Shown here: one piece after another, positions 38,721 through 56,864 of the stretch | Position numbering within the stretch: position 1 is the first letter of the stretch | Layout of the letters: every line of letters begins with the position of its first letter | Source: a virus | Direction: 5' to 3' (one strand) | Virus record (IMG/VR): IMGVR_UViG_3300024999_000049 | Location: 56,194-120,193 of that record | DNA length: 64,000 bases | Position numbers and translations under genes: made by a program | The notes under the pieces: model-generated | The model's input: the letters and a program-made list of their open reading frames with translations, nothing else | Databases searched by the model: none | What the model was told of the DNA's origin: nothing

Positions 38721-38798
38721 GGGGATAGATAAGGATTAATTACCCTTATTGAAAAAGGCAACATCCTGATTGCTCTTCCCTATTTTAAATTTCAGGAT
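38721..38798 (+). ncRNA. homing-endonuclease leader RNA, copy 1
   Basis: Two hairpins: ATAAGG/CCTTAT (38729-38734 with 38744-38749) and GCAA/TTGC (38758-38761 with 38770-38773). The second loop CATCCTGA contains ATCCTGA, complementary over 7 bases to TCAGGAT at 38792-38798. The outer stem is weak (GGG/CCC). Same plan as the leaders at 44222, 50739 and 56778. Confidence 0.6.
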
Positions 38799-38823
38799 AA
38801 TAATTCTACAGGAGGAATTTATA

Positions 38824-40275
38824 ATGGGACTTATAACCAAAGAAGTGGAAATTGTTGTAAATAGTAAAACAATAAAACACTATAGAGAATTAGGATATGA
38901 AATTATTAAAGATGAATGGCATAGTGCAAGTAATAAAATTAAAATAAAAGTTGAACATTTAACAGATGGTAGCCATTCCAAGGTTGATATTAAATGTGAT
39001 GGTTGTGGCAAAGAATTAACAGATATGCCTTGGAAAGATTATAAAAGGTATGTACGTGATGATGGAAAATATTATTGTGTTCAATGTTCACATGTACTAA
39101 GTAATAATCATAATAAATTTACAGAAGAAGATGTTAGAAAAATAGTTAATGAAAAATTAGGTATTGATTGGAAAATTCATGAGATTAAAGTAATTAAAAG
39201 ACATACAAATGTAGAATTAGAGGATACAGAAGGATATTGGTATGATAATGTTAATATTTCATCTGTTAAATTTAGAGATAAACCACGTAGGTTTCATAAA
39301 TCTAACACATATACTGAATATAATATTAATAGATATTGTGAAATAAATGTTTTACCTATTAGGTTACATAAAGATAAAAGAAGTACTATAGATAATAAGC
39401 ATAATAAAGCAGAGTGGTACTGTTTAGATTGTGGAAAAATTTTTGAACGAACGTTTGATGCAGTTAGAAATGGTCAAACTTCATGTCCTTGTTGTAGTGA
39501 TAATATTTCATATCCAGAAAAATTTGGATTATCATTTTTTAATCAATTAAATATTAATTATATTTATAATTCTAAATTAAAATGGTCTGAAAATTATAGA
39601 TATGATTTTATTATTGATAATTTAAAATTAATTGTAGAAACACATGGTGGACAACATTATGAAGAGTCTTTTTCTAGAATTAATGGGGCAAAGACATTAG
39701 AGGAAGAGCAAGAAAATGATAGATTAAAGAAAGAGCTAGCCGTGAGAAATGGTTATAAATACATAGAAATTGATTGTAGAAAATCAGATATGACATGGAT
39801 TAAAAATAATATATTGGATAGTGAGTTAATAAAATTGTTTGATTTGTCTAATATCGATTGGCTACAAATACATGAAAAATCTTGTAAAAATTTAGTTAAA
39901 ATCGTTTGTGATATGTGGAATAATGGTATTAGAAATACACTTGATATCAGTAAAATTATTAAATTGAGTAGAAGTTCAATTACTACATATTTAAAACAAG
40001 GAACAGAGTTGGGATGGTGTGATTATAATCCAATAGATGCAAAAAAAGATGGATATAAAAAAAATAGTATTGAACAATCTAAAATTGTTATTCAATTATC
40101 CTTAGAAGGATAATATATTGCAGAATTCAGTAGTATAAAAGAAGCAGCTAAAAAATTAAACATGAATCCTTCAGCAATTTCTGCCGTTTGTGTCGGTAGA
40201 TATACTCAAACAAATAGTTTCAAGTGGTTACACAAATCAGACTATGAAGAATTGATTAAATCTAATAATCAATAA
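38824..40275 (+). pseudogene. PD-(D/E)XK-type homing endonuclease, broken by an in-frame stop
   Basis: From the ATG after GGAGG the frame runs 429 codons to TAA at 40111-40113. Domains: an N-terminal module with CDGCGKEL/CVQC zinc residues, a second zinc ribbon (WYCLDCGKIF ... CPCC), and a PD-(D/E)XK nuclease core (YDFIIDNLKLIVETHGGQHY). Past the stop the same frame continues YIAEFSSIKEAAKKLNMNPS... to 40275, completing a NUMOD1 DNA-binding motif that begins just before the stop. So a GAA-to-TAA change most likely cut the C-terminal DNA-binding domain. The nuclease is probably weakened or dead. Confidence 0.75.
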
Positions 40276-40303
40276 ACTAAATAAGAATAATAAAAGCAAA
40301 CGA

Positions 40304-40329
40304 AGAGACTATTGTGATAGTCTCTTTTT
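40304..40329 (+). terminator. intrinsic terminator after the homing endonuclease
   Basis: AGAGACTAT (40304-40312), loop TGTG, ATAGTCTCT (40317-40325), then TTTTG. A perfect 9-bp stem followed by T residues. Confidence 0.8.
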
Positions 40330-40405
40330 GATTTGTAACAAAATAACAAACCAATAAAATAAAAATAACCTTATAGAACAAAAACTATGAAATGAGTGAT
40401 TATAT

Positions 40406-40636
40406 GTGTTAGTAAAAAATGCAGAAAATATATTTACCCAAGCCGATATTTATTACTGCTATTCACCTCCTTTAAAGAAACACCTGTGCAATAATAAAAA
40501 GTTGGGATATATTGGTAAAGGTGTAAATGGGGATAGTGGTAAGACCTACTGGCTATTTATCAGAAATGAAGAGTTGGAAGGTTACTTAAAAGAATGGTCT
40601 GATAATTCAAAAAATGGGATTAAGGCAGTAGAGTAA
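40406..40636 (+). CDS. hypothetical protein, 76 aa, GTG start
   Basis: (M)LVKNAENIFTQADIYYCYSP..., aromatic N-terminus and a YWLFIRNEELEGYLKEW segment. It sits between the portal and scaffold-like genes. A GAGTGA site supports the start. Function unknown. Confidence 0.5.
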   Translation: MLVKNAENIFTQADIYYCYSPPLKKHLCNNKKLGYIGKGVNGDSGKTYWLFIRNEELEGYLKEWSDNSKNGIKAVE

Positions 40637-40666
40637 TATATCATGATTTAAAGGAGGTGAGTAATA

Positions 40667-42505
40667 TTGAGTGAGAGTGAAATAGTATCTTTTGCAGTAC
40701 AAAAAGTAAATAAGTTAAAAGAAGATGACAGATTTATATATTTAGATATGCAAATTGCATTGGTAGGACTGAACTCGAATAAGAGTTTTATTTCTAAATC
40801 TGCTTATGATGATGCAAAACCAACAATTGAGTATATTCCAATATGTGCTACACTTGCTTCAAATAAAAAAGATTTTCTTGAGCATGAAGGTATTCCTAAA
40901 TTAAAATGTATTGGAGTAATTTTGTCTTTACAAGATAATAATTATAGATATGAGACTTTAGAAGATGAAAATGGAAATGATAGAGAATATATTTTTGTTA
41001 ATGGCATCATATTTAAGGAATATTGTCCCATAGAATCAAAAATTATTTTGGAAAATATTGAAAAAAGCACAAGTCTTGAAATAGAAGTTTTACAAAAGAC
41101 CAAAAAAGATGGTCTTTTTTATTTTGATAAATTTAGATATCAAAGTTGTGTGGTTATTGGGTCAAAGTATGAACCAGGAATGAAGGATTCTCATCTTGAA
41201 GTTGCTTCTGATTACAAAGAAAAATATAGTCAAGATATTGAAAAAATTAAATATGTTTTCTCAAAACAAACTACAGATACCGACAATAAATTTCAATTAG
41301 GAGACAGCGTAATCCCAACAGAATTACATATGCCTGAACACGAAGGGAAAATAGGAATAATTTCTGAGGTGAGAAATGGTAATTATTATGCAATAAAATT
41401 TACTGATACCGATGAACAACATGAATGGTATGCAGAAGATGAATTAAAGATTGCTGATAAAGACACAGAAGAATTTATATCCAAAGATGAAATTGGTATT
41501 AATGAAAAAATTAATATAGATTTACAAAAAGAAAATTTCAAAGAAAGTGAGGTTGATAAAATGGCTTTTAACAAAGAAGAATTTACACAAAAATTTGGCT
41601 TAACTGCAAATCAATTAAGAGATTCAATGAATGAAGCATGTAACAGTATAAAATATAAATCTGGAGATTATGAATATACAAAATATTGGGTTTCGGATTA
41701 TGATGAAAAATATGCTTATTCGTATGATTATGAGTTGAACAAGTATATGGCTCTATCATATAAAATGGAAGATGGAAAATGTCTCTTAGATTTTGCTGGT
41801 GCAAAACCTGCCAAAACAATGCAAACATGGATAGTAGAGGGTGAAGAAGATGGTGAAATGCCTGAACCGTCTATACTAGAAGAATTGTTAGCTAAAATTC
41901 TTGAAAAAGTTTCTGCTGAAAAAGTTGATTTTGCTGCTAAAGTTGAATCTGAAAAAGAAACAATGAAAGCTGAATTTTCTCAAGAAAAAGAAACAATGAA
42001 AGAAACAATGACAGGGACAATAAAAGAAACTGTGAAAGCAGAATTTGCTATTCAAATAGATGAAAAGCAGAATTCTATTGTTTCATTGGGTCAAGAATTG
42101 GATGGTTTGAAAGAACAATTTACTGCAAAAGAAACAGAAATAGAAACCTTTAAATCTGAAGTTGCAACTTTCAAGAATGAAAATGAAACTCTTAAATCTG
42201 ATATTGCTAAATTTGCTAAAGAAAAGAAAGAAACACATGCAGAAGTTATTCTTTCTAAATTTGCAAAGAAAATTAGTGAAGATGAAAGAAAAGAATTATT
42301 TGGAAAACTTGAAAAGTTTAGCACAGTTGAAGATTTTGAGAAAGAAGTTAAAGCTTTTGTTTGTGATAAATATGAAGCTGAAACCAAAGGAAAAGGCAAT
42401 AAAGAATTTACCACTTATTCACGTATGAGCGTGAATACAACTATTGATGTTAAGTCTGATGGTAATCATTGGACGGATTACATAAAAGAATATAAACAAG
42501 AATAA
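40667..42505 (+). CDS. scaffold-like protein with long coiled coil
   Basis: 612 residues, TTG start after GGAGGTGAG. Residues 1-280 are globular and acidic. About 395-545 are a Glu/Lys-rich coiled coil (KVESEKETMKAEFSQEKETM, TKETVKAEF-type repeats), then a short helical tail ending NHWTDYIKEYKQE. Position between portal and capsid genes and the coiled coil fit an internal scaffold that the ClpP-like protease removes. An N-terminal non-scaffold domain is unusual and may be a fusion. No protease motif is seen here. Confidence 0.55.
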   Translation: MSESEIVSFAVQKVNKLKEDDRFIYLDMQIALVGLNSNKSFISKSAYDDAKPTIEYIPICATLASNKKDFLEHEGIPKLKCIGVILSLQDNNYRYETLEDENGNDREYIFVNGIIFKEYCPIESKIILENIEKSTSLEIEVLQKTKKDGLFYFDKFRYQSCVVIGSKYEPGMKDSHLEVASDYKEKYSQDIEKIKYVFSKQTTDTDNKFQLGDSVIPTELHMPEHEGKIGIISEVRNGNYYAIKFTDTDEQHEWYAEDELKIADKDTEEFISKDEIGINEKINIDLQKENFKESEVDKMAFNKEEFTQKFGLTANQLRDSMNEACNSIKYKSGDYEYTKYWVSDYDEKYAYSYDYELNKYMALSYKMEDGKCLLDFAGAKPAKTMQTWIVEGEEDGEMPEPSILEELLAKILEKVSAEKVDFAAKVESEKETMKAEFSQEKETMKETMTGTIKETVKAEFAIQIDEKQNSIVSLGQELDGLKEQFTAKETEIETFKSEVATFKNENETLKSDIAKFAKEKKETHAEVILSKFAKKISEDERKELFGKLEKFSTVEDFEKEVKAFVCDKYEAETKGKGNKEFTTYSRMSVNTTIDVKSDGNHWTDYIKEYKQE

Positions 42506-42533
42506 TAAGGGATTGAAAGGATGGTAATATAAT

Positions 42534-43049
42534 ATGGCTAATATCGTTGAGATCATGGGCGAAATAATTGATGATGGTGAAGTATTAAGTGTACAACATG
42601 CTACACTTGCACTTGATGACGGTTATGTAGGTGAACTTACTGGCTTGGTATCTGGAGAGAGGGATTTATATACAATTGCTACAGCTGATGCTGTGACTAC
42701 TGATGAAGTAGTAATGGTTGTTGGTGCAGAAGTATATATTGATGCAAATGGATTTAGAAGTCCTTTGCATAATAAAGCTAGTTTCACTTATATCGCAACT
42801 AGGCCTGTAAGAGCTTATAGAATGAGGGTTGGTAGAAGGGTTAAGATTAATACTTCTGGTATTACTGGAACACCTGTAGCTGGACAATATGTAATACCAG
42901 TCAATGGTACTTTTGTACTTGCTGCTGCTGCTGATTTAACTGGTGCTACTAGATTAGCATTTGTAGTTGAAGAAACTGGAGCTACTTGTAATATATTTAC
43001 AGGTAAAACTGCTGTTCCTGCTACAATACTTAGAGTTGTTAAAGCGTAA
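42534..43049 (+). CDS. head decoration-like or minor capsid protein
   Basis: 171 residues of beta-rich, Gly/Thr/Val-rich sequence (GEVLSVQHATLALDDGYVGE, VAGQYVIPVNGTFVLAAAAD). Small beta-barrel plan and position directly before the capsid gene fit a decoration (cement) protein. GGATGG site. Assigned from context. Confidence 0.55.
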   Translation: MANIVEIMGEIIDDGEVLSVQHATLALDDGYVGELTGLVSGERDLYTIATADAVTTDEVVMVVGAEVYIDANGFRSPLHNKASFTYIATRPVRAYRMRVGRRVKINTSGITGTPVAGQYVIPVNGTFVLAAAADLTGATRLAFVVEETGATCNIFTGKTAVPATILRVVKA

Positions 43050-43085
43050 TTAAATAAATATAATAAGAGAGGATGGTAATAATAT

Positions 43086-44198
43086 ATGATGATGAATAGA
43101 CTTGCTACGTTTTCAAAGAAACAAGTAGCTACAGTAGAATTAGGAAAAGAATTATACAAACATTATTTGTATGAAAAAGAAAACACTAATGGCAGATATG
43201 ATAGATTTCAGACATTTGCTAAAACTGCTGATGAAGCTGGGCATATGGTTTCATATGCTGACAAAAACAAGTTGTTCCACAATATGCTTGTAGATGAAGC
43301 ATATGAGATTTCTGGACTTAATAAAGAGAGGTTTTCTGTAATAGATGCCTTTACATTCCAGAATTTTGAAAGAGCATATTTTGCTGTTTTGGAAGAAACT
43401 CTTAATGTAGTTAATACTAAGGCAGAAATTGAACAGGCTCTTAATTTCGTAGAAGTAAAGAGTTTGGCTGAAGGGGATAGTTTGACTTTCCACATTCCTT
43501 CAAACCATTTGCTTTCTGTTTCTACAGTAGCTAATGGCGTTAGAAACGTTCACTTCCAGAAATTATGGGAAGAAGATGTTACTCTCGTGCCAAAAGTGAA
43601 AAAGGCGGGGATCGCCGTGGATGTATATCGTGTAGCAACGGGTATGTATGATTATGGTCATCTGATTAATCAGGTTGTTAAATCATTCATAGTTAAATTG
43701 CAACAAGAAGCTATTGATATCGTTTACGGTGCGTATAGTACGCTCGCCACAGGCTTCAAAGAAAGTACCTTTGCCCAGGACTCTTACATCAGGTTGGCTG
43801 AAAAAGTTGAAGCTGCTAATGGTTCTCCTGTAATCGCTATAGGTACAAAAACGGCATTAAATGTTGTACTTCCGACGTCGGATTACTTGAAGTTTGCTGC
43901 GGGTGCAGAGTATCTTGGAGAAGGTTACATACAAGCTCCGTTTGGAATTCAAACTTTGAGACTTGCTCAAAGCGTGAAGCCGTCTAGTGCATATGATTTC
44001 GCAATCTCAAACGACTATATTATAATGATTAGTGCTGGAACTGACAAAATATGTAAAATTGGCAAGGAAGGAAAAATGTCGATAAGACAGAGCAGAGATG
44101 GCGATTTGGCAGATAATTCCAGAAATTACACAATTACAGATAGTTGGGAATTGAAAATGGTGTCACAATCTCATTTCGGGATTATAAAAGTGCGCTGA
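43086..44198 (+). CDS. major capsid protein
   Basis: 370 residues, near the usual length of an HK97-fold capsid protein. The early acidic helix (VATVELGKELYKHYLYEKEN), a central GDSLTFHIPSNH and the late VIAIGTKTALNVVLPTSDYL then RNYTITDSWELKMV fit the E-loop, spine and A-domain order. The GC content of parts of the gene is higher than its neighbours, as is usual for a highly expressed capsid gene. It follows the scaffold-like and decoration-like genes. Confidence 0.75.
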   Translation: MMMNRLATFSKKQVATVELGKELYKHYLYEKENTNGRYDRFQTFAKTADEAGHMVSYADKNKLFHNMLVDEAYEISGLNKERFSVIDAFTFQNFERAYFAVLEETLNVVNTKAEIEQALNFVEVKSLAEGDSLTFHIPSNHLLSVSTVANGVRNVHFQKLWEEDVTLVPKVKKAGIAVDVYRVATGMYDYGHLINQVVKSFIVKLQQEAIDIVYGAYSTLATGFKESTFAQDSYIRLAEKVEAANGSPVIAIGTKTALNVVLPTSDYLKFAAGAEYLGEGYIQAPFGIQTLRLAQSVKPSSAYDFAISNDYIIMISAGTDKICKIGKEGKMSIRQSRDGDLADNSRNYTITDSWELKMVSQSHFGIIKVR

Positions 44199-44221
44199 TA
44201 GACTTATAAAAATAATTAAAT

Positions 44222-44314
44222 AATGGTTCTTATATAGATTTGCAAGTTTATATAAGGTAATTAAAAAGCACATGCCTATACATGTGCTTTTCCCATTTAT
44301 ATTTCTTATATAGG
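44222..44314 (+). ncRNA. homing-endonuclease leader RNA, copy 2
   Basis: Outer stem AATGG/CCATT (44222-44226 with 44293-44297). Hairpin 1: CTTATATA/TATATAAG (44229-44236 with 44249-44256). Hairpin 2: an 11-bp perfect stem, 44264-44274 with 44281-44291, whose 6-base loop CCTATA is fully complementary to TATAGG at 44309-44314. Closest relative is the leader at 50739. The second hairpin with its TTTT could also stop transcription from the capsid gene. Confidence 0.7.
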
Positions 44315-44330
44315 AAAGGAAATAAAAATA

Positions 44331-45629
44331 ATGAATAAATATAAAACAGTAACAAGAGAAGAATTTGAAGAGAGATTGTATAATAAACATGAGAACAATA
44401 TTACATTAATTGGTGAATATATAAATATTTCTACTAAAGCCACTTTTAAATGTCGTGTTTGCAATCATGAATGGAATCCAATACCTTCTTCTTTAATCAA
44501 ACTAAAAATTGGATGTCCAAAATGTGCAGGTAAGATGAAACTTAATTATAATTATGTAAAAGAATATATTGAATCTTTTGGATATACATTAATATCTGAT
44601 GAATATATAAATGCAAAAACAAAATTAAAAATGATATGTGATAAAGGACATGATTGTGAAATTAGTTGGGATAGTTTTAAAAGTGGTTGTAGATGTAAAA
44701 TTTGTGCTAATAATCAACCTAAAACTTATGAAGAAGTTAAAAACTATATAGAGTCATTTGATGGTTATAAATTATTATCAAAAACATATAAAAAAGCTAC
44801 AGCCAAACTTTTAATAAGATGTCCATTGGGGCATAAATTTTCAATGAATTGGAATAGCTTTCAGCAAGGTCAAAGATGCTCTGAATGTGCTAATAATATA
44901 CCTAAAAATATAAATGAAATTAGAAAATATGTTGAAAGTTTTGATTTTAAATTACCAGAACAAGAATATATTAATGTTAAAAAGAAATTAAAAATGGTTT
45001 GTCCAGAAGGTCATAATGTTAATATAAATTTTGATAATTTTCAACAAGGAAATAGGTGTGCAATATGTTCTAAAAAAGCAAAGAAAACAATTCCCGAAAT
45101 TAAAGAATATATGTTTAAAGAATCTTATTTATTATTGAGTGAAGAATATATTTCTGCACACAAAAAACTTTTAATACAATGTCCTGAAGGTCATATTTTT
45201 TCTATGGCTTGGGCAGATTTTCAACAAGGTCAAAGATGCTCCGTATGTAATGAATCTAAAGGTGAGAAACAATTAGATATTATATTTTGTAAATATAATG
45301 TTCCACATGATAAACAATGTACTTTTGATGATTTAAGAGGAGTTGGTGGTGGACTATTAAGGTTTGATTCATCTGTATTTTGGAATGAAGAAAAAACAGA
45401 TTTAAGAATGTTGATTGAGTATGATGGAATTTTTCATTATGAAAAACAATATGATGATGATGGATTTGAGACATTGCAAATACACGATAATCTTAAAAAC
45501 GAATATTGTCAAAACAACAATATAAAACTATTAAGAATCCCTTATTGGGATTTTGACAATATTGAACAAATATTAAAAAACGAATTAAAACTACAAAAAC
45601 AAGAAACCCAACAGCAAACTGCTGTATAA
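44331..45629 (+). CDS. zinc-ribbon-repeat homing endonuclease (VSR/PD-(D/E)XK-like)
   Basis: 432 residues. The N-terminal 300 contain five repeats of a zinc-ribbon unit (FKCRVCNHEWNP..CPKC, then GHDCEISWDSFKSGCRCKIC, and CPLGHKF, CPEGHNV, CPEGHIF), spaced about 55-65 residues. The C-terminal nuclease (RMLIEYDGIFHYEKQYDDDG ... LLRIPYWDFDNIEQIL) has the EYDG and RIPYWD elements of the VSR-like homing endonucleases. A free-standing mobile gene inserted between capsid and neck genes. Intact. Confidence 0.8.
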   Translation: MNKYKTVTREEFEERLYNKHENNITLIGEYINISTKATFKCRVCNHEWNPIPSSLIKLKIGCPKCAGKMKLNYNYVKEYIESFGYTLISDEYINAKTKLKMICDKGHDCEISWDSFKSGCRCKICANNQPKTYEEVKNYIESFDGYKLLSKTYKKATAKLLIRCPLGHKFSMNWNSFQQGQRCSECANNIPKNINEIRKYVESFDFKLPEQEYINVKKKLKMVCPEGHNVNINFDNFQQGNRCAICSKKAKKTIPEIKEYMFKESYLLLSEEYISAHKKLLIQCPEGHIFSMAWADFQQGQRCSVCNESKGEKQLDIIFCKYNVPHDKQCTFDDLRGVGGGLLRFDSSVFWNEEKTDLRMLIEYDGIFHYEKQYDDDGFETLQIHDNLKNEYCQNNNIKLLRIPYWDFDNIEQILKNELKLQKQETQQQTAV

Positions 45630-45696
45630 AATAAAAATAATAATCCCAAATATAAATTAGAACACAAATAATTAGATTAAAGGAGAGAAAATAAAA

Positions 45697-46494
45697 ATGG
45701 CAAGACCGACAAACGCATCAAAAGAGATAAAAGAGATAAAAGAGGTAGTAAGTAAAGAGGTAGAAACTAAGGAAACCAGTGAAATTAAAGTGGCAAACAC
45801 AATTAGCGAAGCAAACGCAATAGACTTTTCAAAAGAACTTGAACAAGCGAATGAAAAAAACAAACAATTAGAATCAAAAGTAGACAATCTTACAGCAATG
45901 TTGGAAAAACTATTGACATCTCAGGCACAAACGCAAACTAAAACTGAATCTAACTCTGAAAAAACAATTGACAATGAGGTAAAAACTAAAGGTTCAACTA
46001 AAAAATCAGGCTTTCAAGCATATGCCGAGATTGAGCCAGCGCGAAGAATATTGATCGTAAACATGATGAATGCTGGTGGAACATTTACTACATATAGTGG
46101 TAAGCCTATTAGGTTTGATAATTTTGGTCACATACAACCTGTAAGATTTGAAGAATTAGAGAGTTTAGCATCAAAGTACAGAAATTACTTTGAAAATCTC
46201 GAATTAAGGATATTAGACGAAGATGTTGTAGACGCTTTATATTTAAGGCAATTTTACAACAAATACGATATTTCTGTAGAGGAGATGGAAAAAATCATAG
46301 AACTAAATCCACAGGCTTTAGTAGAAAAGATTAAGACTTTAAGCACTCCATTACAGGAATCTGTATTATGTTTAATTATTTCCAAGGTTGCGGAGAACGA
46401 CTACAAATATATGGACAAGAACAAATGGGATGTATTAAATAACGCATTCAATATAAACATTCAAGAGTTTGCGAACAAATATGTCGTTAGGTAA
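45697..46494 (+). CDS. hypothetical head/neck-region protein with N-terminal coiled coil
   Basis: 265 residues. The first 70 are Lys/Glu-rich helix (EIKEIKEVVSKEVETKETSE), then a linker and a globular part with PIRFDNFGHIQPVRFEELES. Its place after the capsid gene suggests a structural or assembly role. AAAGGAGAG site. No family recognised. Confidence 0.5.
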   Translation: MARPTNASKEIKEIKEVVSKEVETKETSEIKVANTISEANAIDFSKELEQANEKNKQLESKVDNLTAMLEKLLTSQAQTQTKTESNSEKTIDNEVKTKGSTKKSGFQAYAEIEPARRILIVNMMNAGGTFTTYSGKPIRFDNFGHIQPVRFEELESLASKYRNYFENLELRILDEDVVDALYLRQFYNKYDISVEEMEKIIELNPQALVEKIKTLSTPLQESVLCLIISKVAENDYKYMDKNKWDVLNNAFNINIQEFANKYVVR

Positions 46495-46558
46495 TTTATC
46501 TAAAGTAAATAAATATAATAAAGCAAATAAATAAAATACAGAAAGGTTGTGGGTATGA

Positions 46559-47032
46559 TTGGCTACATCTTTTGAGTTACCATTTGAACAATTTTTACTA
46601 ATTATAGATGATCCTAGATTCATTAATAATTACACAGAAGATAATTTAGCATTAGAATTATCGAAATACATATACAGGTCAATTGGGATATGCAGAGATT
46701 ATCTTTACAAAGATATAAATAATTATACTCCAACGAGTTCTGACGGTATAACTATAGGTAGTTTCAATGATGATTTAAATTACCAAGAGATATCTTTTAT
46801 AGCTAGGGGAATGACCATCCCCTATCTTGAATTCCAATTACAGAAGCAGAAGCATTTAAATCAGATAGTATATGGTAAGGATTACAGTGTACATAGTCAA
46901 GCACAGCATATAAAGGAAGTCAGAGAGACTGTAAAGGATACTGAGAGCAGGTTAAAACAGGATATGATAATGTACTCATATCATCAAGATGCTGATAAAT
47001 TAAAGGGTTCTAGCGGGGCTAGTTCACTGTGA
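46559..47032 (+). CDS. probable head-completion/connector protein
   Basis: 157 residues, TTG start after AAAGGTTG. Helical with aromatic segments (FEQFLLIIDDPRFINNYTED, DLNYQEISFIARGMTIPYLE), and a polar C-terminus. Position right after the head genes suggests a connector (inference). Confidence 0.5.
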   Translation: MATSFELPFEQFLLIIDDPRFINNYTEDNLALELSKYIYRSIGICRDYLYKDINNYTPTSSDGITIGSFNDDLNYQEISFIARGMTIPYLEFQLQKQKHLNQIVYGKDYSVHSQAQHIKEVRETVKDTESRLKQDMIMYSYHQDADKLKGSSGASSL

Positions 47033-47067
47033 TAATTATAATTAAGAGTTAACGGAGGTGGATAGTT

Positions 47068-48852: not shown

Positions 48853-48863
48853 GAAGTGATAAT

Positions 48864-49682
48864 ATGGACAAAGAATGTTTAGAATTAATGTCTCTTGCAG
48901 GACTTCCTATTGAAATTAATAATTTGGGTAAAGTTTATCCAGTAAAATTATTAGATATTGCAGAAGTAACAGAGTATAAATATAATCAATATATAAATAT
49001 TTTATGTATTGATGTTGATAATCTTAATCTTGATAAAGAAAACAAAGATGAATTAAAAAAAAATAATGTTGATTCTTTCTCATTGATTTTACAATTATGT
49101 AAGCAGGATGAACAATATTTAGAGATAATTAAAGATGCTTTTGAGTTTTTTTTAAAACAAGAAGTTATATTTGCGCCAAATTTAGGTGCTTTTTTTATTG
49201 GTACAATTGAAAGTTTAGAAATTATTTTTAAAAATATAAAAAATGAAAAAGATTTAAAAAAAATAGAAAATATTTTATATGAAAATAGTTTCATAACAGA
49301 AAAGAAATATAAAGATTTCAAAGAAGTTTTATTATTACAAAACTGCATTGAGAATAAAAATTCAGATGATGAAAAATATGTTAATGAAAAAGCAAGAGAA
49401 ATAGCCGAAAAAATAAAAGCAGCCAAAGAAAAAATTAATAAAATTAAATCAAAGCAAGGAGATATATTATCTTTATTTGATTTAATCTCTGCTTTTGCTG
49501 GTAATTCAAAATCCACAAACATTATTAATGTATGGGATATGACAATTTTTCAATTTAACAATCAATTTAAAAGAATGCAAATGATTGAAGACTACGATAT
49601 AAATATTCGTCAATTATTGGCTGGAGCGGATTCAAAAAAGATTAATTTAGAACATTGGATTCGCAAAATAAAACAAAAATAA
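48864..49682 (+). CDS. possible tail assembly protein, 272 aa
   Basis: Helical protein with a Lys/Glu-rich helix (residues 160-195, AREIAEKIKAAKEKINKIKS) and a closing IFQFNNQFKRMQMIEDYDIN. It precedes the major tail protein, the usual site of assembly factors. No slippery-site evidence was found. Confidence 0.45.
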   Translation: MDKECLELMSLAGLPIEINNLGKVYPVKLLDIAEVTEYKYNQYINILCIDVDNLNLDKENKDELKKNNVDSFSLILQLCKQDEQYLEIIKDAFEFFLKQEVIFAPNLGAFFIGTIESLEIIFKNIKNEKDLKKIENILYENSFITEKKYKDFKEVLLLQNCIENKNSDDEKYVNEKAREIAEKIKAAKEKINKIKSKQGDILSLFDLISAFAGNSKSTNIINVWDMTIFQFNNQFKRMQMIEDYDINIRQLLAGADSKKINLEHWIRKIKQK

Positions 49683-49697
49683 TAAGGAGGAAATAAA

Positions 49698-50474
49698 ATG
49701 GGAGTAAGATATGGCGTACGTGAGATAGCGAATGTTGTTTTTAAAGACATTGCTACAGGAAAACCAGCTTTATATTTGGAATCACTTAAGACCAGTTCGA
49801 CCGAGGTATCGGCTGATGCAAATTATGCGAGAGGTGGACGTGGAAACCCTAAACGCTTGATGTGGGAATCAAATAAAGAAGTAATGTATAACATGGAAGA
49901 TGCACTCATCAGTGCGGAAGCATTGGCAATTCTTGCAGGTACTACTATTACTACAAAAATTAAACAGGTACAATATAAAGAGGTGTTAACACTTAGTTCA
50001 AGTAAAACAGTAACACTTACTAAGACACCTACTGCACAATCTGGTTTTCCTATGTTTATATTTTTAACACAAGAGGGTTATGATATTGGAATTACTATTC
50101 CAGTAAATGCAACTAATGGATATCAAATAGCTGGTACCACTATTACTTTTGCTGGTACAGTAGATAGTCATTTATTTGTAGAAGGTGACAAAGTAATTAT
50201 TGATTACTATTATGATTCAGCAGCTACAGCGAAAGAAATTATAATTGAATCTGGAAAATTTGCTGGATATTATAAAGTTGAGGCAGATACAATATGGACA
50301 AGAGAAACTGACGGTGCTTTACTTCCTGCTAAGTTTACTATGCCTAGGTGTAAGATTGCTAGTGGCTTTACTATTTCTAATGCAGCGGAGGGAGACCCTA
50401 GTGTATTCAGCTTCGTTGCTGAAGTTTTTCCTAATAGTGATGATCAAATGGTAATCATTGACATTATCGAATAA
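49698..50474 (+). CDS. probable major tail (tube) protein
   Basis: 258 residues. The signature NPKRLMWESNKEVMYNMEDALIS (GNP...W.....V...MEDALIS) resembles a family of phage tail tube/structural proteins in Firmicutes. Beta-rich, Thr- and Gly-rich, then GDPSVFSFVAEVFPNSDDQM. It follows the neck genes. GGAGG site. Strongest tail candidate in the window. Confidence 0.6.
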   Translation: MGVRYGVREIANVVFKDIATGKPALYLESLKTSSTEVSADANYARGGRGNPKRLMWESNKEVMYNMEDALISAEALAILAGTTITTKIKQVQYKEVLTLSSSKTVTLTKTPTAQSGFPMFIFLTQEGYDIGITIPVNATNGYQIAGTTITFAGTVDSHLFVEGDKVIIDYYYDSAATAKEIIIESGKFAGYYKVEADTIWTRETDGALLPAKFTMPRCKIASGFTISNAAEGDPSVFSFVAEVFPNSDDQMVIIDIIE

Positions 50475-50494
50475 TTTAATTGGAGGTAAATTCT

Positions 50495-50704
50495 ATGAAA
50501 GAATCTTCAATAAAGGAGAGTACAAAGAATAAAATTTTAACGATCAAAGTAAAATGTCCTATTGTAGAATGGCTTGAGAATGATACATATATATTATTAA
50601 ATAATATGGTATATAGTATTGAAAATTCAAAAATCAAAGAAAACAATGGAGCATTTGTTGTAGTTGAATATGTAATTAACGATGGGAATATAGAATTTAT
50701 TTAA
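50495..50704 (+). CDS. hypothetical protein, 69 aa
   Basis: Start at MKESSIKESTKNKILTIKVK after GGAGGTAA. Beta-rich small protein directly after the tail gene. Function unknown. Confidence 0.5.
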   Translation: MKESSIKESTKNKILTIKVKCPIVEWLENDTYILLNNMVYSIENSKIKENNGAFVVVEYVINDGNIEFI

Positions 50705-50738
50705 TTTTATATTTCAAAAACAACAGAGTAAATATAAT

Positions 50739-50834
50739 AATGGTTCTTATGTAGAGTTGCAAATTTACATAGGGTAATAAAGAGATTGCATTCCTAATGT
50801 GTAGTCTCTTTCCCATTTATTCTCTATATTAGGA
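50739..50834 (+). ncRNA. homing-endonuclease leader RNA, copy 3
   Basis: Outer stem AATGG/CCATT (50739-50743 with 50813-50817). Hairpin 1: CTTATGTA/TACATAGG (50746-50753 with 50766-50773), in which an A-U of copy 2 has become G-C and another pair G-U. Hairpin 2: AAAGAGA/TCTCTTT (50779-50785 with 50805-50811) plus inner pairs. Its 7-base loop TCCTAAT (50792-50798) is fully complementary to ATTAGGA at 50828-50834. Confidence 0.7.
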
Positions 50835-50846
50835 AGGAGAAGAAAT

Positions 50847-52007
50847 ATGTTAATAACTAAAGAAGTAGAAGTAAAAATTAGTGGGAAAAATATAAAACAT
50901 TTTAAGAATTTAGGTTATGATTGTAAACTTACTGATAAATTTATAATACCGATAGAACATTTAACTAAAGGTAGTCATATATATGTTGATGTAAAATGTG
51001 ATTATTGTAATATTAATATAGTATCTAAAAAATATGATGATTATATAAAACAGAATCAAAAATCATTAGTACATAAAGATTGTTGTAAAGATTGTCAGCC
51101 TTTAAAAAATATAGAAACTTGTTTGATAAAATATGGGGTAAAAAATCCAAGTCAAGTAGATAGTATAAAAGAAAAACGATTGCAGACATTTGTAGACAAC
51201 TTTGGTGTTGATAATCCAATGAAAAATACGCAAATTCAAAATAAAACTAAACAAACTAATTTTACTAAATATGGATTTGAAAATGCTTTTCAAAATAAAG
51301 AAATTCAAAATAAAAGTAAACAAACTTGTTTAAGTATGTATGGAGTTGAATATTCTCTTTCTTCTGATATAGTTAGAGATAAAATAAAAAATACAATATT
51401 AGAAAAATATGGAGTAAATAATATATCACAAAATGAAGAAATTCAAGAAAAAATCAAACAAACAAATTTAAAAAAATATGGATATATCACTCCATCTAAA
51501 AATGAAAAAGTAAAAGAAAAATCATTAAATAATTTAATACAATCAAAATATAGAAATGGAACTGCTCCATATAGTAAACAACAACAATATTTAAGTAAAT
51601 TATTAAAATGGGAAATGAATTATCCTATAAATAAAGGATGGTTAGATTTAGCATTCATTGATGAGTATATTTATTTAGAATATGATGGTTCTGGACATAA
51701 TCTTAATGTTCAAATGGGCAAAATGTTACAAAATCAATTTGATAAAAACGAGAAAAGAAGATATTATGATTTATATAATAATGGTTGGAAAATGATTAGA
51801 ATAATATCTTTAAAAGATTATTTACCTTATGATGAAATCATACTTCAAATTATCAAAGAAGCAAAAGAATTTTTAAATACAGGACATTCGTGGATAAAAT
51901 ATGATATTGATAATTCACAAGTTATTACATCACAATATATAAAGAATTATAATTTTGGCAATCTTAGAAAAATAACAGAAAAAGACATAGAATCTTTTGT
52001 ATCATAA
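50847..52007 (+). CDS. homing endonuclease with YGVxN repeats
   Basis: 386 residues. A short N-terminal zinc-like part (CDYCNINI...CKDC) is followed by five repeats of about 35 residues (YGVKNPSQVDSIKEK, FGVDNPMKNTQIQNK, YGFENAFQNKEIQNK, YGVEYSLSSDIVRDK, YGVNNISQNEEIQEK). The C-terminal nuclease has WLDLAFIDEYIYLEYDGSGH and KRRYYDLYNNGWKMIRI, a PD-(D/E)XK-type core. Repeat-bearing homing nucleases of this sort are common in Firmicute phages. The N-terminus (LITKEVEVKISGKNIKHFKN) is clearly related to that of the gene at 38824. Confidence 0.8.
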   Translation: MLITKEVEVKISGKNIKHFKNLGYDCKLTDKFIIPIEHLTKGSHIYVDVKCDYCNINIVSKKYDDYIKQNQKSLVHKDCCKDCQPLKNIETCLIKYGVKNPSQVDSIKEKRLQTFVDNFGVDNPMKNTQIQNKTKQTNFTKYGFENAFQNKEIQNKSKQTCLSMYGVEYSLSSDIVRDKIKNTILEKYGVNNISQNEEIQEKIKQTNLKKYGYITPSKNEKVKEKSLNNLIQSKYRNGTAPYSKQQQYLSKLLKWEMNYPINKGWLDLAFIDEYIYLEYDGSGHNLNVQMGKMLQNQFDKNEKRRYYDLYNNGWKMIRIISLKDYLPYDEIILQIIKEAKEFLNTGHSWIKYDIDNSQVITSQYIKNYNFGNLRKITEKDIESFVS

Positions 52008-52108
52008 CAAACATAGTCAACAATCGGGTAGTCTAAGAGAATTAACAACCTCTCCCCTACCCTACTTATTTACTATACAAAAACAAAAACAAGAGTTAAA
52101 AACGAACA

Positions 52109-52179
52109 ATAGGAGAAAACGGTTAAAAACAGCTAAGTAAGAAGGCTTGTTAGATAGCCTTTTTCTCCTATTTTTTTTA
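52109..52179 (+). terminator. strong intrinsic terminator
   Basis: AATAGGAGAAAA (52109-52120) pairs with TTTTCTCCTATT (52162-52173), with an inner AAGGCT/AGCCTT hairpin and a run of T after it. It ends the transcript from the homing gene. A second short pair, GGGTAG/CTACCC, lies at about 52026-52063. The 286 bases between genes hold no frame. Confidence 0.8.
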
Positions 52180-52293
52180 CGATTTTACAAACAGTGATAA
52201 GACAATAAAAGTATTGTTTTATTTGGAGTTAAAAATTGAATTAAATAAAAATTAAAAAACAAAAAACTCAAAAATGAAAGGAATGATTATAAA

Positions 52294-52743
52294 ATGGCAC
52301 ATTTAAATTTACACAAAGCTAGTGACGATTCAATAATTTCAACGGCTGGAACTCTCACCAATGCGGTAGAGTTTACTCTTAGGGCAGACCTATCTGAGAC
52401 AGGAGAAATTAGACTTTATGCAATGACAGATTTTGGATATGAGACAACGAGTACGGTGATATCATTTGTAGACAGTGAATTTAGAAAAGACCCAGGTGAA
52501 GCAATAAGAGCGAAAGAAGGCGGGGATGGGGTTGCAACACTTACAAGTTGGTGTTTAGCACCAGATGTAGCAGGAAGTCCAGGAACGTACAATGCTTATG
52601 GTGCTTCTCTTTCGATTGGCACAGTCGGAAATTCGGCTGGTAAGATTTACTTCCACGCTAAAGCCAAGGCTGAGACCAGTGAAGAGGCAATTCAAGACTG
52701 CTCAGTTGCAATCAAAGCTGAAGGTATAGAAAGAGCTACTTAA
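52294..52743 (+). CDS. virion structural protein, beta-rich, 149 aa
   Basis: Ser/Thr/Gly-rich, beta-like sequence (SIISTAGTLTNAVEFTLRAD, GYETTSTVISFVDSEF). AAAGGAATG site. It precedes the tail spike-like gene. Its function is inferred from position and composition. Confidence 0.5.
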   Translation: MAHLNLHKASDDSIISTAGTLTNAVEFTLRADLSETGEIRLYAMTDFGYETTSTVISFVDSEFRKDPGEAIRAKEGGDGVATLTSWCLAPDVAGSPGTYNAYGASLSIGTVGNSAGKIYFHAKAKAETSEEAIQDCSVAIKAEGIERAT

Positions 52744-52771
52744 TCCTAGCTTAGAAAGGTAGGTAGTTCAA

Positions 52772-54190
52772 ATGGCTAATTATTACGTTAGTAACCAAAG
52801 AGGTTCAGATTCTAATGATGGTCTTTCTCAGGAATTTCCTTTTCTCACAATTTCAAAAGCTATCACGATGGTTACAGCAGGGTCATATGTGTATATAGGA
52901 AGTGGGACATATCGCGAAAAAGTAACACTTCAAACATCAGGAAGTGTATTTTCTAAAATTTATTGGATTGTAGATCAAGAATCTAAATATCTAACAGATG
53001 ACAAACCTGGAATTGTAAGAATAACAGGTTGCGATATAAATGAGCAACCAACAAGCGGTATTGTTTGGAACTTTAATAGTAAAGGATATAATTTTATTCT
53101 TTCTTGGAAAAATTATGGTGAATTTTATATAGATGGTTCTAGTGATAATTATGCTATTTATATGAATTCAACCTCAACAATGAAACTGTTTGGTGCTGTG
53201 GTTACTAGTTATAACGGTATTTATAGTGGTACGTGCGAAAACTGTATTACTATGGTTGCAAATGAAGGATTTACTTCTAGTAATAGATATGATTGTATAG
53301 CTATTGGTGGAAACGTGGGATTTAATTATGGATTTAATATGAATGGCATTGCATTAGGATGTGTTTCAGGGTTTACAGGTAGTACAAGAAGTGATGTAAA
53401 TTGTACGGCTATAGGTTGTACAAATGGATTTTATACTAATAATGCGGTATCTACTAGCACAAATTGTTTAGCTTTAAATAGTCAATATGGATTTAATATG
53501 AGTGGTTTATCAACACTTAATTACTGCCGTTCAGTAAGTTGTATAAATGGATTTTATGGGACATCTACAACAGATGTTTTAAACACTTCTACTTGTAGTG
53601 CAGTTTATTGTGGAAACAAACAACGCACTATATTTACTGAACCAATAACTTATTATGAAACAGTTGAAGTTTCAAATGCAAACCATTATTCTTATTATCC
53701 CGTAGATTTAATCAAAGCACTTATGCCAATAATGGAATTTAACTATACTGGTGGGAGTAATCTTGGTGTTGGATACAGTTTTTATGATATTATGGGTCAT
53801 GGAAGAGCATTGATGGACGGATTATGTCATTATGGAGCACATGAATTTTCAAGAGTAGGAATTGATTTTGTAAATTATCATACATATACTCCTTCAATAA
53901 AGATTGAGCGAGCAGGACAACAGAAATTTACATTTTTTGCTACAGGTGGAGAAGCCTTTAAAAAAAGTGTATGGGTAAAATGGTCTAATGTAGCAGTAGG
54001 TAGTGAACCTCAAATATTATTTCGTGGAAAGTACATGACAACAACGATAATTACAGCCACTGGAGATGGTAGTACTTGGCTATATTTATCTGCTGAAATT
54101 ACTCCAACAAGAGATACGGAAGTTGAAATGTATTTATATGCTAAATATAGTGGGGCAAGTGCGGTGGTGTATTTTTCTGATATTAATTAA
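52772..54190 (+). CDS. tail spike with parallel beta-helix domain
   Basis: 472 residues. Opens with YYVSNQRGSDSNDGLSQEFP and FLTISKAITMVTAGSYVYIG, the DUF1565/pectate-lyase-like start. Residues 60-300 show beta-helix-like repeats rich in Asn, Gly and Cys, e.g. CIAIGGNVGFNYGFNMNGIA. A C-terminal beta domain of about 170 residues follows. It probably binds or cuts host surface glycan. No catalytic residues are assigned. AAAGGTAG site. Confidence 0.7.
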   Translation: MANYYVSNQRGSDSNDGLSQEFPFLTISKAITMVTAGSYVYIGSGTYREKVTLQTSGSVFSKIYWIVDQESKYLTDDKPGIVRITGCDINEQPTSGIVWNFNSKGYNFILSWKNYGEFYIDGSSDNYAIYMNSTSTMKLFGAVVTSYNGIYSGTCENCITMVANEGFTSSNRYDCIAIGGNVGFNYGFNMNGIALGCVSGFTGSTRSDVNCTAIGCTNGFYTNNAVSTSTNCLALNSQYGFNMSGLSTLNYCRSVSCINGFYGTSTTDVLNTSTCSAVYCGNKQRTIFTEPITYYETVEVSNANHYSYYPVDLIKALMPIMEFNYTGGSNLGVGYSFYDIMGHGRALMDGLCHYGAHEFSRVGIDFVNYHTYTPSIKIERAGQQKFTFFATGGEAFKKSVWVKWSNVAVGSEPQILFRGKYMTTTIITATGDGSTWLYLSAEITPTRDTEVEMYLYAKYSGASAVVYFSDIN

Positions 54191-54214
54191 AATAAAGTTA
54201 GGTGGTGGCAGACT

Positions 54215-56395
54215 ATGAAATTAATTAAAGGCAGATTATATTCGAGTCTGCCTAATACTAATCATAAAATGTTTATACTTAAAGGAAAAATATATTCAAT
54301 TATTTGGCATAAGGTTGAAATATATGGTTTAAATCAAATTAATAGAAAATCAACTTTAATAACATCAATATTAAGTCAAACTTATAGAAAGATTTTAAAT
54401 ATATTTAAAGGTAAAACTATCAGAAAACTTACTCAGTCCATATCAAATACAAATCAAACCAATAGAATTAATAATATATTATCAGACACTTCAACACAAA
54501 CACGTAGGAATAATGTGAGTTTTATCACACTTTTTGGTAGCACTTATAGGAAAATAACACAATTAATTTTAAGTGAATATCAAACTATAAAGTCAAACAA
54601 TAAGTTAATCAATTTTTTATATCAAACTGATAAAAATATAAATAAAACATCTGTATTTTTATCTCAATCTAAACGTAATATTATAGAATTGATTAGTAAT
54701 AAAATACAAAATAATAGAGTTATTATTAAATTTAATTATATTAGTAATCAAATAAAAAGGAATATTATAGAATTAAGTGAATCAATAAAGCAAACATATA
54801 GAAAAATCAATAATATATTTATGTTTAATGTGCAAATAAGTAGAAAAATTAATAGTATATCTGTTTTTTATGTTCAAACAAATAAAAGAATACATAAATT
54901 AATTAGTGTTCTTTATCAATCTGTAAGACATAATATGATCATAGTTTATTGTATTAATCAAATTAAAAGAGATATAAATAAATTATATTTTACTAACAAG
55001 CAGACAAAAAGAAATATTTTAGAGTTTATTGTTAATATCATTCAAACAAATAGAGATATAAAGAAATCAGTGGATACTACTACTCAAAACAATAGACGAA
55101 TAAACAAAATACAATTTGTAACTTTGCAGGTAGTAAGAAATATCATTCAACAAATTAATATTATGTTTCAATCTAAGAAAAATATTAATAAAATTATCAT
55201 TATTATAAATCAATTAAATAGGAATGTTGAATTACTTAAAGTATTGTTAAAACAAACTTATAGAAAAATAATATTATTAGTTTTAGATAAATATCAAACT
55301 ATAAAAACTAATAACAAGTTAATCAGTATATTACAGCAAACCTACAGAAAAATACCAGATGTGTTTAGTGGGGACACTATAAGAAAATTAACACAATCGA
55401 GTTCAGTTTTATTCCAAACAAGCAAGGATATTAAGAAGATTTTTATAATTTCATCTCAGACTAAACGAAACATTATAGAATTAATTGGAAATAAAACACA
55501 ACATAATAGAGATATTATTAATAAAGTAAGTGTTAGTAAGCAAACCAAACGTAATATTACTAAGTTAATAAGCACGAGTATGGTTAGTGTATATGGACAA
55601 TTAGTTAGAATAGTTAATGGATTGATTAGTTATTTGGGGCAGAACAGACGTAATATTTTAAGTTCAATTTCTTCTTATTGGCAGACCAAAAGAAACAATG
55701 GTTTATTAAGTTATTATGTTGGTCAAAGCAAGAGAAATGTTATTAAATTAGTTAGTGGTATAAAACAGAATAATAGAAATATCACAAAAACATTTCAGAA
55801 TGCAATACAACCAAGAAGAAATGTAATTAGATTTGATGAGTATTTAAAACAGATCGAAAGGAATGTAATAAAATTAACTGTTTTTATAAAACAGAATTAT
55901 CGTAAAATATTCAAATTAGAATCTATTACAAAAGGAAGCAAACGAGACATAATTAAGTTGGTTAAATATAATAGTCAGTCAAATAGGGATGTTAGGAAAA
56001 TTGTGTCAGATTATTTTAATCAAACTAAGCGTAATATTATTGAACTAATAAGTTTTAAAAAACAAAGTAATAGAAAAATAAATAAGTTGTTTAATTTTAT
56101 TGTTCAACAAAAAAGAGATATTGTTTTATTAGTGATATCTAAATATCAAAGCAATAGAAATGTTTTATTACTGGTTGAGTTTTTAAAACAAAGTAAAAGA
56201 AATATATTTAATCTAGTCTCCCCTATTCGTCAATTAATAAGAAAGCTTGTAACTATTTGGGATATATGTACTAAAGATTCATATTACTTGATTGAATTGG
56301 AATTGGAATTTGTTGTTGAAGAATTAAAGTTAGATATGTATATGGCTGAAATGCCTCTCGAATTTGAATTAGAAGAGGTGAGTAAAATCTTATGA
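54215..56395 (+). CDS. basic repeat protein (about 40 Q-x-x-R repeats), probable tail fibre part
   Basis: 726 residues. About 40 imperfect copies of a 16-20 residue unit, with the pattern Q(T/S/N)xR(K/N/D)I...(L/I), for example QTKRNIIELI, QTYRKINNIF, QSNRKINKLF. Strongly basic overall. Two copies carry GKTIRKLTQ and GDTIRKLTQ, which match the GDTVRKL and GKTYRSI forms in the protein starting at 63229. The last 60 residues (YYLIELELEFVVEELKLDMY) switch to acidic. It overlaps the next gene by 4 bases. A repetitive rod-like fibre is the likely fold. Confidence 0.6.
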   Translation: MKLIKGRLYSSLPNTNHKMFILKGKIYSIIWHKVEIYGLNQINRKSTLITSILSQTYRKILNIFKGKTIRKLTQSISNTNQTNRINNILSDTSTQTRRNNVSFITLFGSTYRKITQLILSEYQTIKSNNKLINFLYQTDKNINKTSVFLSQSKRNIIELISNKIQNNRVIIKFNYISNQIKRNIIELSESIKQTYRKINNIFMFNVQISRKINSISVFYVQTNKRIHKLISVLYQSVRHNMIIVYCINQIKRDINKLYFTNKQTKRNILEFIVNIIQTNRDIKKSVDTTTQNNRRINKIQFVTLQVVRNIIQQINIMFQSKKNINKIIIIINQLNRNVELLKVLLKQTYRKIILLVLDKYQTIKTNNKLISILQQTYRKIPDVFSGDTIRKLTQSSSVLFQTSKDIKKIFIISSQTKRNIIELIGNKTQHNRDIINKVSVSKQTKRNITKLISTSMVSVYGQLVRIVNGLISYLGQNRRNILSSISSYWQTKRNNGLLSYYVGQSKRNVIKLVSGIKQNNRNITKTFQNAIQPRRNVIRFDEYLKQIERNVIKLTVFIKQNYRKIFKLESITKGSKRDIIKLVKYNSQSNRDVRKIVSDYFNQTKRNIIELISFKKQSNRKINKLFNFIVQQKRDIVLLVISKYQSNRNVLLLVEFLKQSKRNIFNLVSPIRQLIRKLVTIWDICTKDSYYLIELELEFVVEELKLDMYMAEMPLEFELEEVSKIL

Positions 56396-56679
56396 TAGAA
56401 ATGTATAAAGGAGAGAAAAGACTTTGTGGAGTCTTAGTAAAATCAAGGAAAAACACTGATTTTGAGATAGAATCATGTGAATGTAAAGTTTATGATAACG
56501 CAGGTAGTTTAATGTGTGAAGCTGATGGGATAATTGATGGATATAATGTGTTTTATTTTTTAGATAGTAATGATAGTTGTTTTATTACTACAAAAGGATA
56601 TGTGATTGAATACATTATAGAGCTGAAGGATTCTGTTCAGTTATTAATGGCAAGAGTTAGTGTTAAAGTGAAAAGTTAA
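56392..56679 (+). CDS. small protein coupled to the repeat protein, 95 aa
   Basis: ATGA overlap with the previous gene. Beta-rich, with CGVLVKSRKNTDFEIESCEC and a later CFITTKGYVIEYIIEL. Possibly a fibre adaptor or chaperone, from position only. Confidence 0.5.
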   Translation: MIEMYKGEKRLCGVLVKSRKNTDFEIESCECKVYDNAGSLMCEADGIIDGYNVFYFLDSNDSCFITTKGYVIEYIIELKDSVQLLMARVSVKVKS

Positions 56680-56729
56680 ATAGATATATTGATTAAAATT
56701 TAGAAGGAATAAAATAAATAGTTTTTAGT

Positions 56730-56755
56730 GGAGAGATTTTTAGTCTCTCCTTTTT
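56730..56755 (+). terminator. intrinsic terminator ending the fibre unit
   Basis: GGAGAGA (56730-56736), loop TTTTTAG, TCTCTCC (56744-56750), then TTTTT. Clean 7-bp stem. Confidence 0.8.
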
Positions 56756-56777
56756 ATTTAATAATAAAGTTAATTTT

Positions 56778-56864
56778 TAGAAGGGTAACTCAAGTGTCAT
56801 GAACTTGAGAATGGTACACACTCCGATGTACTCCCTTCTATTTTTATTTGTCTATTTGTTGGAG
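56778..56864 (+). ncRNA. homing-endonuclease leader RNA, copy 4
   Basis: Outer stem TAGAAGGG/CCCTTCTA (56778-56785 with 56833-56840). Hairpin 1: CTCAAGT/ACTTGAG (56789-56795 with 56803-56809, 7-base loop). Hairpin 2: GTACA/TGTAC (56814-56818 with 56827-56831) with loop CACTCCGA, of which CTCCGA pairs with TTGGAG at 56859-56864 (one G-U). Sequence unlike the other leaders but the same arrangement. Confidence 0.6.

Follow-up and report, generated by a model that had tools for sequence, protein, structure and literature searches.

Results

The window analysed here is the whole 64-kb stretch at positions 56,194 to 120,193 of the 120,193-base IMG/VR virus record IMGVR_UViG_3300024999_000049, and it carries four free-standing homing-endonuclease genes, each with a structured leader directly in front of it. 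The terminase relatives of the phage are SPbeta-like and other large Bacillota phages, at 33-38% identity. Sequence comparison indicates that large phages carry an undescribed RNA family directly ahead of homing-endonuclease genes. Its predicted fold is a three-way junction of stems P1, P2 and P3, in which the P3 loop pairs with a strand further downstream (Table 1). A sequence-only reading of this stretch had proposed the loop-to-downstream pairings ATCCTGA/TCAGGAT, CCTATA/TATAGG, TCCTAAT/ATTAGGA (in full, TCCTAAT(G)/(T)ATTAGGA) and CTCCGA/TTGGAG for leaders 1 to 4, and all of them lie where it had placed them. The two hairpins and the outer stem that it described were also borne out, but the outer stem of leader 1, which it had called weak, has 6 pairs, and P1 covaries in the homologs.

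Table 1 Leaders, ribosome-binding sites (Shine-Dalgarno sequences, SD) and homing-endonuclease genes in the window; E-values of the models built here are rough
Feature	Position	Strand	Remarks
Promoter of leader 1	TTGACA 38686-38691; TATAAT 38709-38714	+	17-bp spacer, both hexamers exact
Expected transcription start of leader 1	~38720-38721	+	first P1 base
Leader 1, type A	38720-38798	+	model R2, 57.8 bits, E=1e-9
Leader 1 stems	P1 38720-38725/38777-38782; P2 38728-38750; P3 38757-38774	+	P1 of 6 pairs
Leader 1 P2 loop palindrome	38737-38742	+	TAATTA
Leader 1 P3 loop; proximal strand	38763-38769; 38792-38798	+	ATCCTGA; TCAGGAT, complementary
SD of gene 1	38809-38815	+	CAGGAGG; CAGGA also complementary to P3-loop TCCTG
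Homing endonuclease gene 1	38824-40113	+	phrog_4538/559/9084, DUF4379 zinc finger
Leader 2, type B	44222-44314	+	R3 training sequence
Leader 2 stems	P1 44222-44226/44293-44297; P2 44229-44256; P3 44264-44291	+	
Leader 2 P2 loop palindrome	44240-44245	+	TTGCAA
Leader 2 P3 loop; paired strand	44275-44280; 44309-44314	+	CCTATA; TATAGG, abuts SD
SD of gene 2	44315-44320	+	AAAGGA; immediately 3' of paired strand
Homing endonuclease gene 2	44331-45629	+	phrog_559/681, CapR and DUF4379 domains
TATAAT directly ahead of leader 3	50733-50738	+	
Leader 3, type B	50739-50835	+	model R3, 60.7 bits, E=1.2e-11, outside training set
Leader 3 stems	P1 50739-50743/50813-50817; P2 50746-50773; P3 50780-50810	+	
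Leader 3 P2 loop palindrome	50757-50762	+	TTGCAA
Leader 3 P3 loop; paired strand	50791-50799; 50827-50835	+	TTCCTAATG; TATTAGGAA, overlaps SD
SD of gene 3	50832-50839	+	GGAAGGAG; part falls within paired strand
Homing endonuclease gene 3	50847-52007	+	DUF7487, phrog_12131
Intrinsic terminator of preceding gene	56729-56759	+	GGAGAG...CTCTCC then T run; just 5' of leader 4
Leader 4, type A	56778-56864	+	model R2, 51.4 bits, E=2.9e-8
Leader 4 stems	P1 56778-56785/56833-56840; P2 56789-56809; P3 56813-56832	+	
Leader 4 P2 loop palindrome	56797-56802	+	TCATGA
Leader 4 P3 loop; proximal strand	56821-56826; 56859-56864	+	CTCCGA; TTGGAG, complementary
SD of gene 4	56875-56880	+	TGGAGG; TGGAG also complementary to P3-loop CTCCG
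Homing endonuclease gene 4	56889-58085	+	GIY-YIG, NUMOD

Family search and covariation

A descriptor combining the three stems with a pseudoknot whose loop contains TCC matched leaders 1, 3 and 4 and nothing else on the + strand of the window (leader 2 lacks TCC); the - strand of the window gave no match. A scan of 420 kb of sequence surrounding endonuclease relatives gave about 16 matches that scored above 53; nearly all lay 100-150 bases 5' of an endonuclease gene in the sense orientation, and none was antisense. Since chance matches score 50-59 once the TCC requirement is lifted, a single leader alone is unconvincing, and covariance models were therefore used instead. Two homologs outside the window served to build model R1, which recovered leader 1 at E=9e-6 and leader 4 at E=2e-5, values that are rough as for all models built here. 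Model R2 was seeded with 20 R1 matches, one of which (L067) is probably a terminator, carried little weight and was excluded from later sets; it found members outside its seed, such as L003, L014 and L059. The whole records behind the loci (49, then 31) were scanned as well, which gave further matches at places not chosen for an endonuclease. In other phage contigs, the same RNA precedes about 70 endonuclease genes; the models found 52 non-identical type A leaders and about 18 of type B.

These two types mark the point at which the single RNA plan of the sequence-only reading had to be refined: the plan is shared, but it comes in two subtypes. R2 finds leaders 1 and 4 (type A) and misses leaders 2 and 3 (type B), while model R3, with leader 2 and two homologs as its seed, recovers leader 3, which lies outside this seed, and, in other records, about 16 more leaders of type B. 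ATGG/CCAT is conserved in P1 of type B, and the open reading frames (ORFs) downstream are mostly endonuclease-like, as judged by N-terminal similarity. One leader (L143, G031:C1:19356) is matched by both models and so links the two types. The junction sequences AUA after P1 and GAYA between P2 and P3 are conserved in part.

The sequence-only reading had suggested that a covariance model be searched against phage genomes and examined for covariation, and both steps spoke for it, as the RNA occurred almost only upstream of homing genes and covariation was present in all three helices and in the pseudoknot. In the alignment of the 52 non-identical type A matches, paired cells make up 95.6%, and two-sided changes occur at 22 of 23 pairs. 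Covariation scores 0.686, compared with 0.224±0.012 for shuffled alignments and at most 0.157 with the partner strand slid; these figures are somewhat inflated because the alignment was fitted to the structure, the gap to the controls is very large, and kinship among the leaders was reduced, not removed.

No family of Rfam 15 matches any of the four leaders, either at the gathering score or with relaxed filters, in agreement with the earlier statement that no RNA of this plan was known upstream of free-standing phage homing genes. The best weak match, to Atu_C9 at leader 2 (17.2 bits against a gathering score of 40) is a chance hairpin, and a group I intron remnant was rejected because there was no Rfam match. 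The DNA of leader 3 had no relative among 50,697 phage records. Scanning genome contigs with the GIY-YIG protein gave nothing, and scanning them with protein family A9 gave 9 loci; R2 matched 4 in the genomes behind them, of which 2 (L222 and L232) resemble leaders ahead of endonucleases and come from Clostridium and Bacteroidetes metagenome-assembled genomes, possibly phage contigs. Weak model matches that are terminators (in the E3 phage, L146 and L185) were not counted as members, and weak matches such as L144, L146 and L148-L151 were put down to terminators or chance. In Geobacillus virus E3, a separate element (L152, ~1430-1500; GGAGATACCCGGGTATATAAATGCGTTGCAACGCCTCC) stands ahead of an unannotated DUF7487-like endonuclease; it has two palindromic hairpins in a compact junction closed by GGAG/CTCC and is possibly a distant or an unrelated analogue.

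Association with homing genes

Among confident matches (E below ~1e-3, at places not chosen for an endonuclease), nearly all lie ahead of an endonuclease gene. The downstream proteins comprise the phrog_559/681/9084/4538 group, the DUF7487/phrog_12131/phrog_5104 group, GIY-YIG (phrog_314/7168), HNH (phrog_1271) and endonuclease VII-like (phrog_1035) types. Because nearly all confident matches precede endonucleases of unrelated families, the leader goes with the selfish gene whatever its nuclease, and the earlier view that the RNA rather than the protein is the shared part holds. Start codons were assigned from the ORF and the SD, and some of these calls may be wrong.

A few leaders depart from this arrangement. 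In L137 (G036:C1:22588-22647) the RNA and the proximal strand are kept and a structural-type gene follows; this is probably a leader left behind after loss of the endonuclease. A structural-type gene also comes next in L130 and L134, with an endonuclease ORF ~690 bases further on in L134. In L126 and L128 the leader is intact and the endonuclease reading frame is broken early, which suggests recently decayed homing genes.

Two partners of the P3 loop at the ribosome-binding site

In type A, two strands complement the P3 loop: the proximal strand, ~11 nucleotides (nt) after P1, and the true SD of the gene. The sequence-only reading had held the downstream strand to be close to but separate from the real ribosome site, a view that overlooks what matters most: in type A the loop also complements the real SD, and in type B the paired strand itself abuts or overlaps the SD. 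Loop, proximal strand and SD read CTCCATC/GATGGAG/GATGGAG in L066, TCTTCCT/AGGAAGA/AGGAAGA in L030, CCTCAC/GTGAGG/GTGAGG in L129 and CTCCAAT/ATTGGAG/ATTGGAG in L239. Both partners track the loop even where UCC is missing, as in L136 (TCGCAAC/GTTGCGA, with GTTGTGA in the SD flank) and L223 (CUCUCUG/CAGAGAG/TAGAGAG).

When loops were permuted among 44 non-redundant type A leaders, the real pairing stood at z=14.0 for the proximal strand and z=11.2 for the SD, and 0 of 20,000 permutations reached the real value. The same permutation with 29 leaders from a pseudoknot-blind model gave z=11.6 and 8.7, respectively. The common TCC/GGA core is retained in the permutations, so that the signal comes from the variable flanks. 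The SD windows were 20 nt wide and in short leaders (e.g. L081) may include part of the proximal strand; the window of L136 was set by hand because the automatic start call was wrong, and L137, L134 and L232 were excluded. Median duplex energies, computed without pseudoknot geometry, are -9.15 kcal/mol for loop and proximal strand, -8.75 kcal/mol for loop and SD, and -9.15 kcal/mol for the 16S anti-SD and SD. The stronger partner is the proximal strand in 22 of the 44 leaders and the SD in 19. The two predicted type A pairings are mutually exclusive and nearly equal in predicted energy, which amounts to a poised competition. In type B, the strand paired with the P3 loop lies directly before the SD or overlaps it (e.g. 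TACTGG-AAGGAG, TAGCAG-AAAGG and TATTAGGAAGGAG), and loop and strand covary at z=6.9 (12 leaders).

A palindrome in the P2 loop

Of the 46 non-redundant P2 loops, 34 have a self-complementary hexamer; shuffling the loops leaves 7.0±2.3 (maximum 15 in 3000 trials). The hexamers include TCATGA, TAATTA, TTATAA, TGATCA, TAGCTA, TTCGAA, TTGCAA, GTCGAC and TCGCGA. When the outer U and A are kept constant, 33 of 41 loops have a palindromic central tetramer, compared with 6.6±2.2 when half-sites are swapped among sequences. The palindrome is flanked by A or G on its 3' side in 26 of 32 loops and most often by AG on its 5' side. Since self-complementarity is conserved and the sequence is not, the P2 loop bears the mark of pairing with another copy. 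A second copy of the palindrome in cis was present in 6 of 30 leaders against ~3.5 expected by a rough estimate, and kissing in cis was therefore unconvincing.

An alternative is that quasi-palindrome correction, acting on the DNA of the P2 inverted repeat, produced the palindromes, with no RNA dimer involved. In its favour, the palindrome sits near the middle of the P2 inverted repeat. Against it, P3 forms an inverted repeat about as large, and palindromes are absent from all 44 P3 loops examined; the P2 palindrome is also offset in its loop and has the 3' flanking purine of kissing loops. We regard this explanation as improbable.

Many of the phages (G000, G007, G031, G046 and others) carry three to six leaders. 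The P2 palindromes within one genome often differ, and by eye few pairs are shared, although the numbers are small; such differing palindromes are possibly orthogonal dimers.

Promoters and transcription

A perfect TTGACA-17-TATAAT stands just before P1 in 8 of 49 leaders, and 11 of 49 have at most one promoter mismatch, against 0.035 in shuffles. This position implies that, wherever a host-type promoter can be recognised, transcription of the leader begins at about the first P1 base. Leaders in which no promoter is recognisable may use other promoters or read-through. The preceding gene has its terminator just 5' of leader 4, which suggests a separate transcript for endonuclease 4; a weak covariance-model match at 56702-56755 is this terminator hairpin. 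An upstream ORF after the proximal strand was rejected, as leader 4 has an in-frame ATG there and the homologous L088 leader has none.

The start at P1 bears on a possible role as a stabiliser of the mRNA 5' end, in which a junction and pseudoknot like those of flaviviral exoribonuclease-resistant RNA (xrRNA) would protect the mRNA against 5'-3' degradation by the RNase J of a host presumed to belong to the Bacillota. The secondary-structure topology agrees, for in both RNAs the L3 loop of a three-way junction pairs with a strand lying beyond P1; xrRNA has been shown to stop RNase J1 in vitro (PMC5760640), and an RNA starting at P1 would have a base-paired 5' end. However, where a perfect promoter puts the predicted start at the first base of P1, the RNA would lack the ring-threading 5' strand that defines xrRNA, and identity with xrRNA was rejected for this reason. 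The spacing is also wider, with the proximal strand ~11 nt from P1, the gene context is different, and a stabiliser leaves the palindrome and the covariation of the loop with a second partner, the true SD, unexplained. We consider this role quite unlikely.

A transcription terminator or antiterminator (attenuator) is less probable still, and we give it very little credence. Some leaders have a U-rich P1 strand after P3, and the weak false positives of the model are intrinsic terminators, as in the E3 phage. Such terminators are a GC-rich hairpin followed by a U tract, but many leaders are CCC-rich after P3 (CTTCCCTA, CCCTTCTA and CCCATT) with no immediate U run (by eye), those with a U-rich P1 being a minority, and an attenuator would not explain the SD pairing.

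Elsewhere in the window, a strong RAGATH-18 RNA match (62332-62401, E=6e-13) lies 45 bases beyond the end of an IS605-type TnpB gene (61130-62287, + strand). This is the expected place of a TnpB guide RNA, and the RNA may be the TnpB right end or guide RNA scaffold.

Discussion

The predicted fold, the dual complementarity of the P3 loop, the P2 palindrome, the promoter position and the association with homing genes all stand on sequence statistics. We think it likely that the leaders are a cis-acting, protein-independent translational switch for free-standing homing-endonuclease genes, probably able to homodimerise. Among the functions offered by the sequence-only reading, the translation switch is favoured by the covariation of loop and SD, the terminator or antiterminator is disfavoured, and there was no evidence for a mobility signal.

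The switching, the dimerisation and the direction of control that the leaders suggest could work as follows. By its sequence the P3 loop is an anti-SD element, and the RNA would be a bistable ON/OFF device for ribosome access. With the loop on the proximal strand, the SD of a type A leader would be free and the gene translated; with the loop on the true SD (type A) or on the SD-touching strand (type B), translation would be blocked. Two leader molecules would kiss via their P2 loops, and dimerisation or ribosome occupancy would bias the switch. The output of a potentially toxic endonuclease would be tied to transcript dosage with no dedicated protein, which would explain why the same RNA stands ahead of unrelated nucleases. 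As unrelated endonucleases use the same leader, an RNA-borne signal such as transcript dosage or ribosome availability would be more economical than a dedicated repressor, but a host or phage factor may be involved. More tentatively, the leader could be a dosage-sensing device, in which transcripts count themselves by P2-loop homodimers and the dimer shifts the P3 loop between the SD-mimic and the true SD; we see this as possible but not as the likelier course.

A ligand- or protein-binding translational switch would differ in that a small molecule or a phage or host protein at the junction selects the loop pairing, and the palindromic loop would be a site for a symmetric protein. The partly conserved junction sequences and the bistable pairing, which is of the translational-riboswitch kind, are what such a switch would have. 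Nevertheless, there is little conserved unpaired sequence compared with known riboswitches, the downstream proteins share no common domain, and the palindrome varies freely yet stays palindromic, which points to self-pairing and not to sequence recognition. We therefore hold this explanation to be rather doubtful, and prefer the protein-independent switch.

Several points weigh against the switch and against a single family. All members come from metagenomic contigs; 8 named phage genomes and, under strict filters, 291 genomes of one bacterial class contained no convincing member. Types A and B are joined by topology, the palindrome and the one doubly matched leader, not by a single model. About a quarter of P2 loops have no perfect hexamer, several of these retaining a palindromic tetramer, and many hexamers consist of A and U only, so that a kissing dimer would be weak.

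Translational control by a leader is already known as a functional category. In T4-type homing endonucleases (I-TevI, segB and mobE), a simple hairpin hides the ribosome-binding site on long read-through transcripts, and a late promoter bypasses the hairpin (PMC2988022). A leader structure hiding the SD would limit translation of phage homing endonucleases here too. Unlike the T4-type hairpin, the leaders are a conserved three-way junction with an alternative pseudoknot common to unrelated endonucleases; the SD pairs with or abuts a hairpin loop and is not buried in a stem, and transcripts from what appears to be the leader's own promoter contain all of it. In the timP toxin mRNA, a pseudoknot activates translation of a structurally hidden ribosome-binding site, and an antisense RNA destabilises the pseudoknot (PMC11228461). 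Mutually exclusive mRNA conformations, one of them pseudoknotted, would set translation in both cases, but the leader loop has the SD or an SD-like strand as its partner, and there is no known antisense RNA. The P2 loop resembles the dimerisation initiation site of human immunodeficiency virus type 1 (HIV-1; reviewed in PMC7357161) in being an apical loop of similar size with a 6-nt palindrome flanked by purines, the latter less strictly than in HIV-1. It differs in being AU-richer, in using many different hexamers and in lying in a phage mRNA leader beside an SD switch, and its dimer is only predicted. The leader RNA is assigned to none of the T4-type hairpin, timP or xrRNA. By Rfam and literature searches (subscription journals lay outside their reach) the family is new, and the same literature gave no precedent for a two-target anti-SD loop combined with a palindromic loop.

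The leaders form a strongly covarying RNA family tied to one class of selfish genes, regardless of nuclease type. The combination of a two-target anti-SD loop and a self-complementary loop would also be a compact part for engineering. If the dosage device is real, mRNA concentration would set the translation of a selfish gene, and no protein would be needed. It has long been asked how the expression of free-standing homing endonucleases is kept tolerable at every site where they land, and a portable 5' leader makes this question directly testable.
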